From Pseudonocardia oroxyli (GTDB lineage: Bacteria > Actinomycetota > Actinomycetes > Mycobacteriales > Pseudonocardiaceae): DNA of 64,000 bases. The stretch covers positions 186,001 through 250,000 of the forward strand of contig NZ_FNBE01000001.1 of assembly GCF_900102195.1 (NCBI RefSeq), written 5' to 3'. Position numbers and translations under genes: made by a program. The notes beneath the pieces are model-generated. The model was not told the origin of the DNA and did not search any database. It worked only from the letters and a program-made list of their open reading frames with translations. Positions 32,353 through 37,842 of this stretch are shown here, piece by piece. The number at the start of each line of letters is the position of its first letter. Position 1 is the stretch's first letter.

Positions 32353-33471
32353 TCAGTGCCAGGCCTCGGCGAGGAGCTCGTGGCTGCGGACGCGGTCGGC
32401 GTGCTCGGTGGTGATCGTGGTGACCAGCAGCTCGTCCGCCCCGACGACCCTGACCAGGGTCTCCAGGCCGCCGCGCACGGTCATCGGCGACCCGACGAAC
32501 TGGCTGTCCACCCGGTCTGCGACGCCGGCGCGTTCCTCGGGGGTCCACGGGCGGGCGAGCGCCTCCTCCGGCGTCACGTACGGGCGCGCGCCGCGGCCGG
32601 AGCGGATGTCGAGCACCCACTGGCCGTAGGGGGCCGCCAGCTCGCGTGCCCGGTCGTCGGACTCGGCGACCACGACGTCCGCGGACACGATCACGTACGG
32701 CTCGGCCACCCGGCCGGGCCGGAAGGACGCGCGGTAGGCCTCGACGGCGTCGAGCACGAGGTGCGGGACGAGGTGGTAGCTCACCGCGAACGGCAGCCCA
32801 CGCTGCCCGGCGACGCGCGCGCTGTCCCCCGGCGTGGACCCGAGCACGACGACCTCGACGTCCGCCCCGAGCGCGGGCGTGACCGTCAGCCGCTCGCCGC
32901 GCGGCCCGGGTGCCGTGCCCGCGAAGTAGGACAGCACCTCGTCGACCTCCGCCCCGTAGTCCGGCGGGGTCTGCTCGGCGTCGAAGCCCAGCAGGGCGGC
33001 GAGGCAGCCGTAGAGCGCGAGATCGGACTCGACCCGGCCGGGCTCGGGGAGCAGCAGGCCGTCCACCACCCGCGTCCGCACCGGCGTGCCGCCGCGCCGC
33101 CCCGACGAGCCCTTCTTCAGCAGCGTGAGGATCCGGTGCAGGTCGAACCGCCCCAGCCCCACGTCCACCCGCCCCGGGTGCACCGCGGCGACGGTGCCGA
33201 ACTGCTCGGCCACCTGCAGCGGCCGGGTGTTCGGCAGCTGCACCGCGCCCGAGCCGACCCGGATCGTGGAGGTCGCGGACGCGATCAGCGCGACGAGCAC
33301 CGGCGTGGACGCCGAGGCGACGCCCTCGTTCAGATGGTGCTCGGCCACCCAGTACCGGTGGTAGCCGGCCCGTTCGGCCACCTGCGCGAGGTCGATCGAG
33401 TTGCGCAGGGCGTCCCCCGCCGTGCCGTCCCGCGGCACCGGCGAGAGGTCGAGGATCGACAGCGGGACCAT
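32353..33471 (-). CDS. LLM-class flavin-dependent oxidoreductase (MsnO8-like)
   Basis: A 372-residue TIM-barrel enzyme of the bacterial luciferase-like family, using reduced FMN or F420. The N-terminal SILDLSPVPRDG and YHRYWVAEHHLNEGVASASTPVLVALIASAT segments and the ending DELLVTTITTEHADRVRSHELLAEAW are typical of the MsnO8 subgroup. The substrate is unknown. The start codon directly abuts the stop of the epoxide-hydrolase-like gene, so the two are coupled. It is transcribed away from the other two LLM enzymes of this locus. Confidence 0.88.
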   Translation of the reverse strand: MVPLSILDLSPVPRDGTAGDALRNSIDLAQVAERAGYHRYWVAEHHLNEGVASASTPVLVALIASATSTIRVGSGAVQLPNTRPLQVAEQFGTVAAVHPGRVDVGLGRFDLHRILTLLKKGSSGRRGGTPVRTRVVDGLLLPEPGRVESDLALYGCLAALLGFDAEQTPPDYGAEVDEVLSYFAGTAPGPRGERLTVTPALGADVEVVVLGSTPGDSARVAGQRGLPFAVSYHLVPHLVLDAVEAYRASFRPGRVAEPYVIVSADVVVAESDDRARELAAPYGQWVLDIRSGRGARPYVTPEEALARPWTPEERAGVADRVDSQFVGSPMTVRGGLETLVRVVGADELLVTTITTEHADRVRSHELLAEAWH

Positions 33472-34305
33472 CTACAGCACCTCCGTGAGCGCCTCGGCCC
33501 AGGCGGCGGGCGCCTCGACCGGGGAGAAGTGGCCGACCCCGTCCAGCGGGCGCACGGTCGCGGCGCTGAACCACTCCCCCACCCGGTCCGCCCAGGCCCG
33601 CGGGAAGAGCGGGTCGAACTCGGGCCAGAGCACCACGGTCCAGGTGCCGATCCGACGGGCGGGCGGCTGCTCGGACAGCGCCCGGCGCACCGTCCCCGAC
33701 CCCGCCCGGTACCAGCCGATCGACGCGGTGAAGGCCCCCGGGCGGCCGTAGTGCGCCGCGAGCCGGTCGAGGTGCTCCCCGGGCACCGTGAAGTCCGGGC
33801 CGGACCAGTGCTCCCAGAAGTGCCGCAGGTAGGTGCGGGCGGCCGGGACGCTGCCGTCGACCAGCTCCTCGGCGAGCCGCAGCTGGTGGAAGGACTGGTA
33901 CCAGAACTCCTCGACCGACGTGGGCTCCAGGACCCGCCTGCCGGCGCCGGGCAGCGGCGGGGCGAGCACCATCGCGGACACCCGGTCGGGATGGGTGGTG
34001 GCCAGCTGCTGGGCGACCCGGCTGCCGACGTCGTACCCGCCGACGACGACGCGGTCGAGGTCCAGCTCGTCGAGCAGGTGCACCAGCGAGGTCACCTGCC
34101 CGGTCGCGCCCGGGTCCCCCCGCAGATCGGACTCGCCGAAACCGCGCAGGTCGGGCCGCAGGACGTCCGCGTGCAGCCGGTCCGCGACCGCCGCAAAGTC
34201 CTGCCGGTCCCCCGGCCAGCCGTGCAACAGCAGCACCGCTGGCCCGTCGCCCGCGCGGTCGTAGGTGAGGCGGACGCCGTCCGCGTCCGGTGTCGTGCTC
34301 GCCAC
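33472..34305 (-). CDS. Epoxide-hydrolase-like alpha/beta hydrolase
   Basis: A 277-residue hydrolase. The oxyanion motif is LLLHGWPGD, and the nucleophile elbow GGYDVGS carries Asp92 in place of Ser, as in epoxide hydrolases and haloalkane dehalogenases. The acid is likely the Asp in LWPEFDPLF and the base His in GVGHFSPVEAP. The ring-opening Tyr of epoxide hydrolases is plausible in the cap (YQSFHQL). A near-leaderless GTG (TAAGGT eight bases upstream) heads an operon with the MsnO8-like monooxygenase. An oxygenase plus epoxide hydrolase pair suggests breakdown of an organic compound. Confidence 0.85.
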   Translation of the reverse strand: MASTTPDADGVRLTYDRAGDGPAVLLLHGWPGDRQDFAAVADRLHADVLRPDLRGFGESDLRGDPGATGQVTSLVHLLDELDLDRVVVGGYDVGSRVAQQLATTHPDRVSAMVLAPPLPGAGRRVLEPTSVEEFWYQSFHQLRLAEELVDGSVPAARTYLRHFWEHWSGPDFTVPGEHLDRLAAHYGRPGAFTASIGWYRAGSGTVRRALSEQPPARRIGTWTVVLWPEFDPLFPRAWADRVGEWFSAATVRPLDGVGHFSPVEAPAAWAEALTEVL

Positions 34306-34347
34306 AGTCTCGAACCTTACGGCGTCGATCCGGCCCCGGTGCGCGGT

Positions 34348-34353
34348 TAGGGT
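34348..34353 (+). promoter_or_regulatory. -10 box of the leader-peptide transcript
   Basis: TAGGGT lies seven bases upstream of the GTG at 34361, so transcription should begin at the leader-peptide start codon. On the opposite strand, TAAGGT (34319-34314) serves the divergent hydrolase gene. Confidence 0.55.
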
Positions 34354-34360
34354 TCATGAC

Positions 34361-34444
34361 GTGCTTCCCGGGGTGCTGACGCAGCGGCGGTGGATCGACT
34401 GCTGCCGCGTCACCACCACGGGTTGTCCCGTCGGCCGTCCCTGA
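34361..34444 (+). CDS. Cysteine-rich leader peptide (attenuator) before LLM monooxygenases
   Basis: A 27-codon reading frame that resembles the leaderless polycysteine leader peptides of actinobacterial sulfur genes. The core reads LTQRRWIDCCRVTTTGC, close to the recurring RR(H/W)(V/I)DxCRV pattern, with a tandem Cys-Cys at codons 14-15 and a third Cys at codon 22. In mycobacteria such frames sense charged cysteinyl-tRNA and attenuate downstream operons when cysteine is plentiful. The start at 34361 or the in-frame GTG at 34373 is possible. It ends 50 bp before the first monooxygenase gene. Confidence 0.75.
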   Translation: MLPGVLTQRRWIDCCRVTTTGCPVGRP

Positions 34445-34494
34445 CCATCGAGTCGCACCGCAGCGAGCACCGCACCGAGCAGAGAGCCGCCGAC

Positions 34495-35634
34495 ATGACA
34501 CTGCACCTGGCCGTCGCCCTCGAAGGGACGGGTTGGCACCCGGCATCCTGGCGCGAACCCGAGGCGCGGCCCACCGCGCTGTTCTCCGCCGACTACTGGG
34601 CCGGTCTGGTCCAGGAGGCGGAGCGCGGGCTGGTGGACCTCGTGACGTTCGAGGACACCTTCGCGGTCCAGTCCTCGCGCCCGTTCGAGCCGGACGACCG
34701 CACCGACCAGGTCCGCGGCAGGCTGGACGCCACGCTGGTCGCCGCCCGGGTCGCCCCGCTGACCCGCCACATCGGGCTCGTGCCCACCGCGGTCGCCACG
34801 CACACCGAGCCCTTCCACTTCTCCAAGGCCGTCGCCACGCTGGACTACGCGAGCCGGGGCCGGGCCGGGGTGCGGGTGCGGGTCTCCTCGCGCGCGGACG
34901 AGTTCGCGCTGGTCGGCCCGCACCGCCCGAGCCCGGACCTGGGGACGGACGACACGCGCGCGGAGCTGTTCGCCGAGGCCGCGGACTGGGTCGAGGTGAT
35001 CCGGCGGCTCTGGGACTCCTGGGAGGACGACGCCGAGATCCGGGACGCCGCGACCGGGCGGTTCGTGGACCGGGACAAGCTGCACTACATCGACTTCGCG
35101 GGCCCGCGGTTCTCCGTCCGCGGCCCGTCGATCACCCCGCGCCCGCCGCAGGGGCAGCCGCTGGTGGCCGCGCTCGCGCACCGCGAGGTGGCCTTCGAGC
35201 TCGTCGGGTCCTCGTGCGACCTCGGGTTCGTCACCCCCGGGTCCGCCGCGGACGTCGCCGGGATCCGGGCGCAGATCCCGGGCTCGCCGCTGGTGTTCGG
35301 AGACGTCGTGGTGTTCCTGGCCGACACGGCGTCCGAGGCCCGGGAGCGCAAGGCGCGCATGGACGCGCACCTGGGTCGCGAGCTGGTGAGCGACGCCCAC
35401 GTGTTCGTCGGAACGCCCGTGGAGCTCGCGGACCTGGTGCAGGAGTGGCACGCCGCGGGGCTCGCGGGTGTCCGGCTGCGCCCCGGATCGGTCGACCACG
35501 ACCTGCCGCAGGTCACCCGCGGGCTGGTCCCGGAGCTGCAGCGGCGCGGCGCCTTCCGCACCGCCTACGAGGCGGACACCCTGCGCGGGCTGCTCGGACT
35601 GCCCCGGCCCACCAACCGCTACGCCGCCGTCTGA
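34495..35634 (+). CDS. LLM-class FMN-dependent monooxygenase (SfnC/NtaA-related)
   Basis: A 379-residue luciferase-like TIM-barrel protein. Distinctive parts are LVTFEDTFAVQSS, TLDYASRGRAGVRVRVSSRADEFALVG and the C-terminal GTPVELADLVQEWHAAGLAGVRLRP. It fits the group that includes two-component sulfone, sulfonate and nitrilotriacetate monooxygenases, which need a separate flavin reductase. The cysteine leader peptide upstream points to a role in sulfur scavenging. The ATG has only a weak ribosome site. The next monooxygenase gene starts 12 bp downstream, so both form one operon. Confidence 0.85.
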   Translation: MTLHLAVALEGTGWHPASWREPEARPTALFSADYWAGLVQEAERGLVDLVTFEDTFAVQSSRPFEPDDRTDQVRGRLDATLVAARVAPLTRHIGLVPTAVATHTEPFHFSKAVATLDYASRGRAGVRVRVSSRADEFALVGPHRPSPDLGTDDTRAELFAEAADWVEVIRRLWDSWEDDAEIRDAATGRFVDRDKLHYIDFAGPRFSVRGPSITPRPPQGQPLVAALAHREVAFELVGSSCDLGFVTPGSAADVAGIRAQIPGSPLVFGDVVVFLADTASEARERKARMDAHLGRELVSDAHVFVGTPVELADLVQEWHAAGLAGVRLRPGSVDHDLPQVTRGLVPELQRRGAFRTAYEADTLRGLLGLPRPTNRYAAV

Positions 35635-35646
35635 GAGGGAGAGACC

Positions 35647-37005
35647 ATGCCGCGCAAGCAGATCCATCTCGCCGCGCACTTCCCCGGCGTCAACAACACC
35701 ACCGTGTGGAGCGACCCGGCCTCCGGCAGCCACATCGACTTCTCCTCCTTCCAGCACTTCGCCGAGACGGCGGAGCGCGCCCGGTTCGACTTCCTGTTCC
35801 TCGCCGAGGGCCTGCGGCTGCGCGAGCAGGGCGGCGAGATCTACGACCTCGACGTCATGGGGCGCCCGGACACGTTCACGATCCTGGCCGCGCTCGCCGC
35901 CGTCACGGATCGGCTCGGGCTCGCCGGGACGATCAACTCGACCTTCAACGAGCCCTACGAGGTGGCCCGCCAGTTCGCCTCGCTGGACCACCTGTCCGCG
36001 GGGCGCGCCGCCTGGAACGTGGTGACCAGCTGGGACGCGTTCACCGGCGAGAACTTCCGCCGCGGCGGCTTCCTCCCGCAGGAGAAGCGGTACTCCCGCG
36101 CCAAGGAGTTCCTCGCCGCCGCCTTCACCCTGTTCGACTCGTGGGCGCCGGACGCGGGCATCGTGGCGGACAAGGAGACCGGCGAGTTCTGGCGGCCCAC
36201 CGGCGAGTTCTCGATCCACACCGACCAGTTCGCGATCGACGGCCGCTTCCCGGTGCCGCGCAGCCCCCAGGGCCGCCCGGTGATCCTGCAGGCCGGGGAC
36301 TCCGAGGAGGGCCGCGAGTTCGCCGCCTCCGGCGCGGACGCGATCTTCACCCGGCACGGCACCCTGGAGGCGGGCCAGGCCTTCTACGCCGACGTCAAGG
36401 GGCGCCTAGCGAAGTACGGTCGGGACCCCGAGGACCTCAAGATCCTCCCCGCCGCGACCTTCGTGCTCGGCGACACCGACGCCGAGGCCCAGGAGCGGGC
36501 CCGCCACGTCCGCTACCAGCAGGTCAGCCCGGCCACGGCGATCAAGTTCCTCGAGCAGCTGTGGAACCGCGACCTCTCCGACCACGACCCCGACGGCCCG
36601 CTGCCGACGGTCGACCCGGTCGTCGGCGAGAACACGATCTCCCGCGGACGGGCCAGCGTGCGGATGTACAAGGACCCGATCGCCACGGCGAACGAGTGGC
36701 GCGCGCTCGCCGAGGCGAAGCAGCTGTCCACCCGCGAAGTGATCATCGAGGTGACCGGGCGGCAGAACTTCATCGGCACGCCCCAGCGCATCGCCGAGGC
36801 CCTCGACGAGTTCGTCCAGGCGGACGCGAGCGACGGGTTCGTGCTGGTCCCGCACGTCACGCCCGGCGGGTTGGACGAGTTCGCCGACACCGTGGTGCCG
36901 CTGCTGCAGGAGCGCGGTGTCTTCCGGACGGAGTACGAGGGCACCACCCTGCGGGAGCACCTCGGCCTCAAGCCCGCCCCGACGACCTCGGGCGCGGACT
37001 TCTGA
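35647..37005 (+). CDS. NtaA/SnaA/DszA-family FMN-dependent monooxygenase
   Basis: A 452-residue luciferase-like enzyme with the hallmarks of the NtaA/SnaA/DszA family: RKQIHLAAHFPGVNNTTVWSDP, FDFLFLAEGLRLREQGG, GRAAWNVVTSWDAFTGENFRRGGFLP and PQGRPVILQAGDSEEGREFAA. Members oxidise sulfones (DszA), nitrilotriacetate/EDTA or alkyl sulfides with FMNH2. GAGGGAG precedes the ATG. Together with the preceding gene and the leader peptide it suggests an organosulfur pathway under cysteine control. No transporter or reductase is adjacent. Confidence 0.9.
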   Translation: MPRKQIHLAAHFPGVNNTTVWSDPASGSHIDFSSFQHFAETAERARFDFLFLAEGLRLREQGGEIYDLDVMGRPDTFTILAALAAVTDRLGLAGTINSTFNEPYEVARQFASLDHLSAGRAAWNVVTSWDAFTGENFRRGGFLPQEKRYSRAKEFLAAAFTLFDSWAPDAGIVADKETGEFWRPTGEFSIHTDQFAIDGRFPVPRSPQGRPVILQAGDSEEGREFAASGADAIFTRHGTLEAGQAFYADVKGRLAKYGRDPEDLKILPAATFVLGDTDAEAQERARHVRYQQVSPATAIKFLEQLWNRDLSDHDPDGPLPTVDPVVGENTISRGRASVRMYKDPIATANEWRALAEAKQLSTREVIIEVTGRQNFIGTPQRIAEALDEFVQADASDGFVLVPHVTPGGLDEFADTVVPLLQERGVFRTEYEGTTLREHLGLKPAPTTSGADF

Positions 37006-37023
37006 TCCTCTAACCTGGCGACG

Positions 37024-37842
37024 ATGGCCGTACGTGCGCGTGACGTCATGACCCGGCGGGTGCTCACCGTGGATGCGGAGGACCCGATCGAGCGGGCCGA
37101 GAAACGCATGCTCACGACGGGCTTCTCGGCGCTGCCGGTGGTGCGGGACATCGACCGGCTCGTCGGGATCGTCAGCCTGGTGGACGTGCTGCGGGCGCGG
37201 GAGCAGGACTCGGACGGGACCGTCGGCGGGATCATGACCACCGAGGTCCTGGCCCTGTCCCCCACCACCAGCGCGGCCGTCGTCGCGCACCGGATGCGGA
37301 CCTACGGCGAGCTGCGGGTGATGCCGATCGTCGAGCGTGGCCGCCTGGTCGGCATCGTGACCCGCAGCGACCTGCTCCGCGGGCCGCGCAGGGCACAGGG
37401 CAGGCTCGGGCGGCTCTTCCGGCCGACGCTGCCGGACCCCACCCCCGTCCGGCCGCCGAGGCCCGCGGTGGCGGGGGCGACGACCGTCGGCGAGGTCATG
37501 ACCCGCACCGGGCTCGTGACCGTGGACCCGACCACGCCGTGCTCGCGCGCCGTGGAGCTGTTGCTGGCCCACCGGTTCAGCGCGCTGCCGGTGACCGAAC
37601 CGGACGGCGCCGTCGTCGGGATCGTCAGCGAGGCGGACCTCATGCGGGACCCGCTCGACGGCACCCGCGGCGTCCTGCCCCGCACCGTGGGCGCGGCGAT
37701 GACACGCGACCCGACGGTCGTGCACCCGGGCACCCCGCTGGACCAGGCCCGTGCCTTGGTCGTCGACCGCGGGTTCCGGGTCCTCCCGGTGGTGGAGGAG
37801 GGTGGGCTCGTGGGCGTGCTCAGCCGCAGCGACCTGATCTAG
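37024..37842 (+). CDS. Four-CBS-domain protein
   Basis: A 272-residue protein made of two CBS pairs (Bateman modules) joined by a basic linker. Each repeat shows DVMT or EVMT followed by FSALPV(V/T) and GIVS(E/L)xDL. CBS pairs bind adenine nucleotides. There is no attached enzymatic or channel domain, so it may regulate a partner or act as a sensor, as with DosR-regulon-type CBS proteins. The ATG is leaderless (TAACCT at 37011-37016, seven bases upstream). Its stop codon overlaps that of the convergent SDR gene. Confidence 0.9.

Follow-up and report, generated by a model that had tools for sequence, protein, structure and literature searches.

A predicted leaderless cysteine leader peptide ahead of two monooxygenase genes in Pseudonocardia oroxyli, and a UGU codon shared by related leaders

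The leader frame and its operon

In the 64,000-nucleotide stretch of the Pseudonocardia oroxyli genome analysed here (the window; contig NZ_FNBE01000001.1, positions 186,001 to 250,000), a short open frame precedes two adjoining genes for luciferase-like monooxygenases (LLM) that use flavin mononucleotide (FMN). LLM1 (34495-35634, plus strand) encodes 379 amino acids and LLM2 (35647-37005, plus strand), of the NtaA/DmoA family, encodes 452. The short frame (34361-34444, plus strand) starts with GTG, has 27 sense codons (MLPGVLTQRRWIDCCRVTTTGCPVGRP) and a TGA stop, and ends 50 nt before the ATG of LLM1, whose Shine-Dalgarno-like site is AGAGAG (34481-34486, plus strand; AGGGAG in relatives). 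A -10 box, TAGGGT (34348-34353, plus strand), lies 7 nt upstream of the GTG. We consider it likely that this frame is a leaderless leader peptide that senses cysteinyl-tRNA by way of translation and so controls LLM1-LLM2. The original prediction, made from the letters of the window, had named the box, the frame and its distance to the two monooxygenase genes, and the sequence holds exactly that.

The position of the box 7 nt ahead of the GTG leads us to predict that the window leader is leaderless. In the window as a whole, on both strands, 15 of 3254 ATG or GTG triplets have TANNNT 6-8 nt ahead of them. The spacing is 7 nt in the source genome (G000, 6.1 Mb; other G-numbers are further genomes compared), in G059, G015, G016 and G020 and at a second G020 locus, and 8 nt in G013; it is thus kept at 7-8 nt in 7/7 loci of the window's subgroup of leaders (subgroup A). 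A sigma-70 consensus scan using both hexamers gave no promoter at 34280-34600, so the promoter call rests on the -10 box and the conserved spacing. By a crude motif test, most relatives of the window leader appear to lack a leaderless start: at LLM1 loci of named genomes 3/22 look leaderless and 17/22 carry a Shine-Dalgarno-like site, and among the leader frames of the source genome the counts are 5/27 and 9/27. A leaderless start is thus probable for the window's subgroup and, by that crude test, would not extend to most relatives.

A search for homologous leader frames upstream of related LLM operons, the check that the prediction itself named, found them in four orthologous operons and in a wider set. 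The orthologues in G059, G015, G016 and G020 carry a leader at the same position (VVPGVLTQRRWIDRCLVTTTGC), with a GTG start and equal -10 spacing; the window-type peptide follows the pattern QRRWID..VTTTGC. QRRWID leaders of equal architecture stand at two more loci, in G020 and G013, before a gene for a membrane protein. In G013 that gene belongs to PF03601, presumably a sulfate exporter, and the gene after the second G020 leader looks like it, by eye only.

Six aligned subgroup-A leaders are gapless from the GTG to Cys22. Residues are invariant at 14/22 positions in the leader frame, against 8/21 and 9/21 in the other frames, and third codon positions vary most (10/22 columns, against 7 and 5). 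On this comparison the peptide frame is real and conserved. It is also narrowly distributed: a subgroup-A profile at E 1e-6 found 6/390 genomes of the family, every one in the window's genus. An overlapping 7-codon ATG frame at 34356 (MTCFPGC) was discarded, being absent from the relatives compared.

Register and codon of the last cysteine

The RRWID core occupies codons 9-13 (34385-34399, plus strand) and is invariant in the six subgroup-A leaders, with Asp as codon 13 (34397-34399). The Cys14-Cys15 pair that follows (TGC TGC, 34400-34405, plus strand) is unconserved, with Cys or Arg at codon 14 and Cys or Gly at codon 15. Cys22 (TGT, 34424-34426, plus strand) lies nine codons past the Asp, at the position that we call D+9, and is the proposed sensing codon. 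Of the RRWIDCC pattern with a further cysteine that had first drawn attention, RRWID and the last cysteine are conserved and the CC pair is not. The proposed sensor, judged by conservation in this alignment, is the last cysteine rather than the pair.

The same register recurs more widely. With a search pattern that did not require cysteine, the D+9 codon in all 21 leaders of the genus was Cys in 17 and a stop in 4, and the Cys codon was TGT in 17/17. When the count is limited to frames whose D+9 codon is Cys, with identical cores removed, that codon is TGT in 128/130 distinct leaders: 23/25 in the source genome, 62/62 in the rest of the genus, 23/23 in other genera found through the family NF042934, and 20/20 at LLM1 loci of other genera. 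Both exceptions are in the source genome, ahead of DAO flavoprotein genes. The base after the codon is C in 111/130. A looser first pattern had given 87 cores (78 TGT, 6 TGA, 2 TAG and 1 TGC), a few of them clearly not genuine frames; once the Asp was required and spurious or edge rows were removed, 82 were left (77 TGT, 1 TGC and 4 TGA).

These genomes otherwise avoid the codon. About 90% of Cys codons in the sampled genes are UGC, and the TGT share of Cys codons in ordinary genes of the same DNA is 9.0% (84/929), 11.8% (25/211), 7.1% (6/84) and 10.7% (50/466). The other Cys codons of the same peptides are TGT in 33/125 overall, in 8/64 in Pseudonocardia and in 13/45 in the NF042934 set. UGU, being read by wobble and slowly, might be preferred over UGC at a stalling point; the U may mark the one codon where the stall must occur. 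The fixed register together with UGU suggests codon-specific stalling assisted by the nascent chain, rather than the counting of cysteines. In the portions of the literature that were searched, which left out Canestrari 2020, we found no UGU rule for these leaders. We regard the finding of the leader itself as sound, and the rule of codon and register as the more surprising result of the two.

The monooxygenases, the regulon and the leader family

The original prediction placed the two enzymes in an NtaA/SnaA/DszA group and an SfnC-like group. LLM2 scores 402.4 bits with TIGR03860 (NtaA/DmoA; cut-off 279.7), while LLM1 stays below that cut-off at 225.2 bits and is a distant relative. The SfnC-like label is not supported: no such model is listed for LLM1 or LLM2 in the profile searches, and the SfnG model scores far under its cut-off (73.9 and 12.3 against 382.95 bits). 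Nearest to LLM2 among PDB structures are YtnJ/MoxC (E 2.5e-82), which we take to be CmoJ, and DszA (E 6.3e-78); the window differs from these in having two adjoining LLM genes. LLM1 is nearest to nitrilotriacetate monooxygenase and YtnJ. The enzyme CmoJ, which is homologous to DszA and YxeK, is described in the text available to us as splitting the C-S bond of alkylcysteine sulfoxides (PMC10863075). From such relatives the substrate of the pair is likely to be a C-S compound; some relatives act on C-N bonds. LLM1 adjoins LLM2 in 28/28 contexts analysed (of 40 fetched). At one locus, in G030 (L069), the LLM2 orthologue matches as two separate pieces and is perhaps a broken gene.

The source genome carries a paralogous LLM1-LLM2 pair with a RRWLDGLGSPPGHC leader and, in the loci fetched, 25 leaders with Cys at D+9, or 27 frames when a stop is counted as well. 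Twenty-two downstream genes were chosen by GC content at third codon positions within 500 nt, and 20 of them were scanned with Pfam (L112 and L117 were left out). They include five luciferase-like monooxygenases, two OsmC proteins, two DAO flavoproteins and one protein without a Pfam match. The remainder are one each of a sulfite/nitrite reductase, a Cys/Met pyridoxal phosphate enzyme, TauD, an NlpA lipoprotein, an ABC permease, DUF4395, an NMT1-like binding protein, an SBP_bac_5 binding protein, NAD_binding_9 and HpcH_HpaI. As families these fit a cysteine or sulfur regulon, although several are not specific to sulfur. Comparison supports the predicted sulfur setting, through a monooxygenase pair with relatives that break C-S or C-N bonds and through the 25 leaders, several of them ahead of sulfur-type genes. 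Elsewhere in this genome, four RR[VI]IDHGxVxSxxC leaders and an LLM2-like gene share one 19-kb stretch (L188, G000:C6:60000-79000).

Leaders with the RRxxD motif accompany LLM1 beyond the window's subgroup. One occurs in the 350 nt upstream of LLM1 in 21/30 orthologues of the genus, where dinucleotide shuffles give 0.18 on average, and within 400 nt at 22/80 LLM1 loci of named, nearly all actinobacterial, genomes, against 0.12 in shuffles. Nineteen of these 22 loci belong to genera other than Pseudonocardia, namely Streptomyces, Kitasatospora, Actinacidiphila and Saccharopolyspora. From these counts, the tie between LLM1 and an RRxxD-type leader appears to be either old or often regained. The types at LLM1 loci of the genus are QRRWID..VTTTGC (the window), R[RL]WLDGxGSPxG, RLHVDLLRVASASC and RRHVDLxRVxxxxC-like, the RRWID of the window corresponding to the RRHVD of the wider family. 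Nine loci of the genus gave no leader match (G027, G056, G047, G053, G040, G057, G054, G060 and G036). Inspection by eye shows a RLWLDGVGSPPG leader with TGT and a distant stop in G056 and G047, and upstream regions that resemble decayed leaders in G053 and G036.

Against the NCBIfam models, the window leader scores 19 bits with NF042933 (the Ms5788A Cys-rich leader; E 8.3e-4, residues 5-22 to profile positions 6-23; cut-off 45). Neither the window leader nor three other subgroup-A leaders matched NF042934 (cis_reg_atten, cut-off 27 bits) at E values up to 10, and NF042936 (the Ms4527A leader) gave no listed match for the window leader. Another leader of the source genome, VNWPLTKRRAVDLCRVAGCLCRS, is above the cut-offs of both NF042933 and NF042934, and members of NF042934 above cut-off occur in 62/62 genomes of the genus. 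If the class is defined as a short frame before a sulfur-type operon, with RRxxD and a C-terminal Cys nine codons on, the window leader belongs to it. We therefore read it as what seems to be an uncatalogued subtype of known cysteine attenuators. The D+9 register, the RRxxD leaders and the member of both families in the source genome support the kind of attenuator that was first predicted. Comparison across these genomes shows the frame with its start and promoter spacing, a register and codon that are conserved, and a tie to these genes.

Canestrari 2020 is said to describe leaderless polycysteine attenuators in Mycobacterium smegmatis, at which ribosomes pausing on Cys codons are proposed to control the operon. 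The mechanism proposed here is alike, but the window leader has no polycysteine tract and its conserved point is a single UGU. The parts of Shell 2015 that we draw on give ribosome occupancy on a Cys-rich small frame before MSMEG_5788 (cysA2) and conserved Cys-rich frames before Rv0485 and nirA (PMC4633059), and pausing at Cys codons has been proposed, in the passages concerned with mycobacterial leaders, to control the operon (PMC4633059, PMC9094748, PMC13236596). Leaders of the MSMEG_5788 type (NF042933), judged by the source-genome member and the Mycobacterium-like leaders L191-L193, share with the window leader a short RRxxD frame, a C-terminal D+9 Cys encoded by TGT and a position that opens a sulfur operon. 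The window leader differs from them in having W and I where they have A and V, in the VTTTG that precedes its Cys, in lacking a run of Cys and in standing before an LLM pair, besides scoring below the NF042933 cut-off. NF042934 and NF042936 leaders share the RRHVDLxRVxxxxC register, although the window leader matches neither model. A more distant parallel is the uORFC-8-2 attenuator of cysS in Rhodobacterales, likewise an upstream frame with conserved Cys codons; as far as the excerpted account goes, UGC dominates there and an intrinsic terminator follows (PMC8632094), whereas the leaders compared here use mainly UGU and a scan of 34280-34600 gave no terminator-like site.

Proposed mechanism, alternatives and neighbouring genes

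In the mechanism that we favor, ribosomes would start at the 5' GTG of the leader transcript. A shortage of cysteinyl-tRNA would stall the ribosome when codon 22, the UGU, occupies the A site, aided by the RRxxD stretch then lying in the exit tunnel, and the stalled ribosome would alter the downstream RNA such that LLM1-LLM2 are expressed. With sufficient cysteine the ribosome would reach the stop and expression would drop. The output of the stall could be either exposure of the Shine-Dalgarno site or prevention of Rho-dependent termination. Three elements of this scheme are inferred: the stalling itself, a part for RRxxD in it, and expression that answers to cysteine. Such a leader would link cysteine sensing to a probable organosulfur monooxygenase pair, and related leaders before the first gene of the pair in Streptomyces, Kitasatospora and Saccharopolyspora would offer a handle on these monooxygenases.

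The fixed register and near-absolute UGU, in genomes that avoid UGU, predict how such leaders would stall ribosomes. It is tempting to extend this to the whole actinobacterial RRxxD family as a cysteine-responsive arrest peptide of fixed geometry, with RRxxD in the tunnel while UGU stands in the A site nine codons past the Asp, codon-specific stalling instead of counting, and slow termination causing the pause in one Pseudonocardia clade with UGA at that position. This extension is tentative, and we would put it somewhat short of even. If it is true, cysteine would be sensed through codon-specific, nascent-chain-assisted stalling across these leaders.

A number of observations weigh against the proposal in its local or its wider form. 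Where other genera carry a leader at LLM1, its remaining Cys codons are mostly TGT too (12/16), so that the site-specificity of TGT is clear in Pseudonocardia and not there. In four orthologues (L029-L032, in G058, G032, G037 and G010) D+9 is TGA, then C, and the leaders, RRWLDGxGSPTGL or RLWLDGxGSPAGF, have no terminal Cys; since the four form one clade in the LLM1 tree (support 1.0), the UGA probably arose by one change. RNA pairing in a fixed register gives no account of the UGU: over 82 leaders the best of several thousand position pairs reached z 4.6 and formed no helix, and pairing with the leader's own downstream RNA was not above that with swapped downstream RNA (0.437 against 0.407, p 0.61). 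Downstream GACA does exceed mononucleotide shuffles (32 against 19.8 of 82), with a control that ignores coding bias and a swap test that gave no support. RNA structure as the cause of the UGU was discarded on these grounds. Furthermore, 58/80 named LLM1 loci have no leader within 400 nt, the window leader stays under the NCBIfam cut-offs, and six other leaders of subgroups A and B have no NCBIfam match at all. Finally, G027, the sister of G000 in a FastTree of 30 LLM1 proteins, has no such leader. It falls with the five window-type operons in a clade of six (support 0.998) and, at L010 (G027:C838, before position 454), keeps the -10 box but has only a 20-nt stretch, with a GGGAGG site, ahead of LLM1; nested in this clade and retaining the box, it most likely represents a natural loss of the leader. 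Separately, one leader of the source genome (RRHVDLCRTAAAL; L086, G000:C12:118806-118844), ahead of an NAD_binding_9 protein, has TAG at D+9.

One competitor to a fixed sensing codon is classical counting, in which any Cys codons of the frame sense and RRxxD is incidental. Mycobacterium-like leaders do hold runs of Cys codons, the window leader has three, and the consulted part of Seliverstov 2005 gives Cys runs near the stop (PMC1262725). Counter to this, many leaders carry a single Cys, within the genus D+9 keeps both its register and its codon while the remaining Cys positions differ between leaders, and RRxxD is retained, although it belonged to the search pattern. We judge counting to be rather unlikely, though well short of negligible. 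The conserved element might instead be an inverted repeat within the leader frame (34367-34422, plus strand), acting as an operator or as an RNA hairpin rather than through a translated peptide. The 72-nt leader stretch of G000 is predicted to fold at -42.1 kcal/mol (dinucleotide z -3.65, with 0/500 shuffles as low; synonymous control 15/1000), the hairpin of the second G020 locus is strong too (1/1000 synonymous variants as low), and over six sequences the pairs are kept in 90.8% of cells, which 21/500 shuffles reach. Yet for four of the six hairpins, synonymous variants are often just as stable (190-430/1000 as low). Covariation is weak, with one two-sided pair change, reached by 85/500 shuffles, and a score reached by 70/500; residue conservation is highest in the peptide frame, and the pair scan of 82 leaders forms no helix. 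These results make a repeat improbable as the conserved element. A chance open frame without function would suit a genome of about 73% GC, where short frames are common, and the missing leader of G027; it is contradicted by the conservation, the excess of leaders over shuffles, the TGT at D+9 and the -10 spacing, and has in our judgment very little chance of being right.

For the sensing leader itself, the output step is where folding counts against a simple account. Occlusion of the Shine-Dalgarno site is inconsistent: its unpaired probability in G000 is 0.28 in free RNA, whereas a ribosome placed at codon 14, 15 or 22 or at the stop gives 0.44, 0.21, 0.45 and 0.45, respectively, so that the stalled and finished states are indistinguishable, and in G059, G015 and G020 there is no clear rise. 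Alternatively, what the stall governs may be Rho-dependent termination of transcription within the leader, and not how accessible the ribosome site of LLM1 is. Both this inconsistency and the lack of a site resembling an intrinsic terminator would favor that, and an excerpted discussion of mycobacterial cys leaders suggests Rho-dependent attenuation (PMC1262725). Set against it, a citation in the portion available places M. smegmatis cysteine genes under translation attenuation (PMC13236596). A Rho-dependent output is thus a serious possibility, if not the one we would choose. An Rfam search of 33900-37400 gave nothing above threshold; RAGATH-5, inside LLM1, was a sub-threshold match (26.8 against 50 bits).

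Upstream of the leader, a gene for an alpha/beta hydrolase (33472-34305, minus strand), predicted to be leaderless, runs divergently. It looks leaderless as well in having TAAGGT (34314-34319, minus strand) 8 nt from its GTG (34303-34319 for the whole arrangement), and two leaderless-type promoters would therefore stand back to back. The hydrolase gene also adjoins the operon in G059, G015 and G020. It is followed by a gene for an MsnO8-family LLM oxidoreductase (32353-33471, minus strand; TIGR03558, 316.5 bits against a cut-off of 166.95). Of the two window-type leaders ahead of a membrane protein (L181 and L182), L182, the G013 leader, has an MsnO8-family LLM gene following the membrane-protein gene, 68% identical to that of the window.

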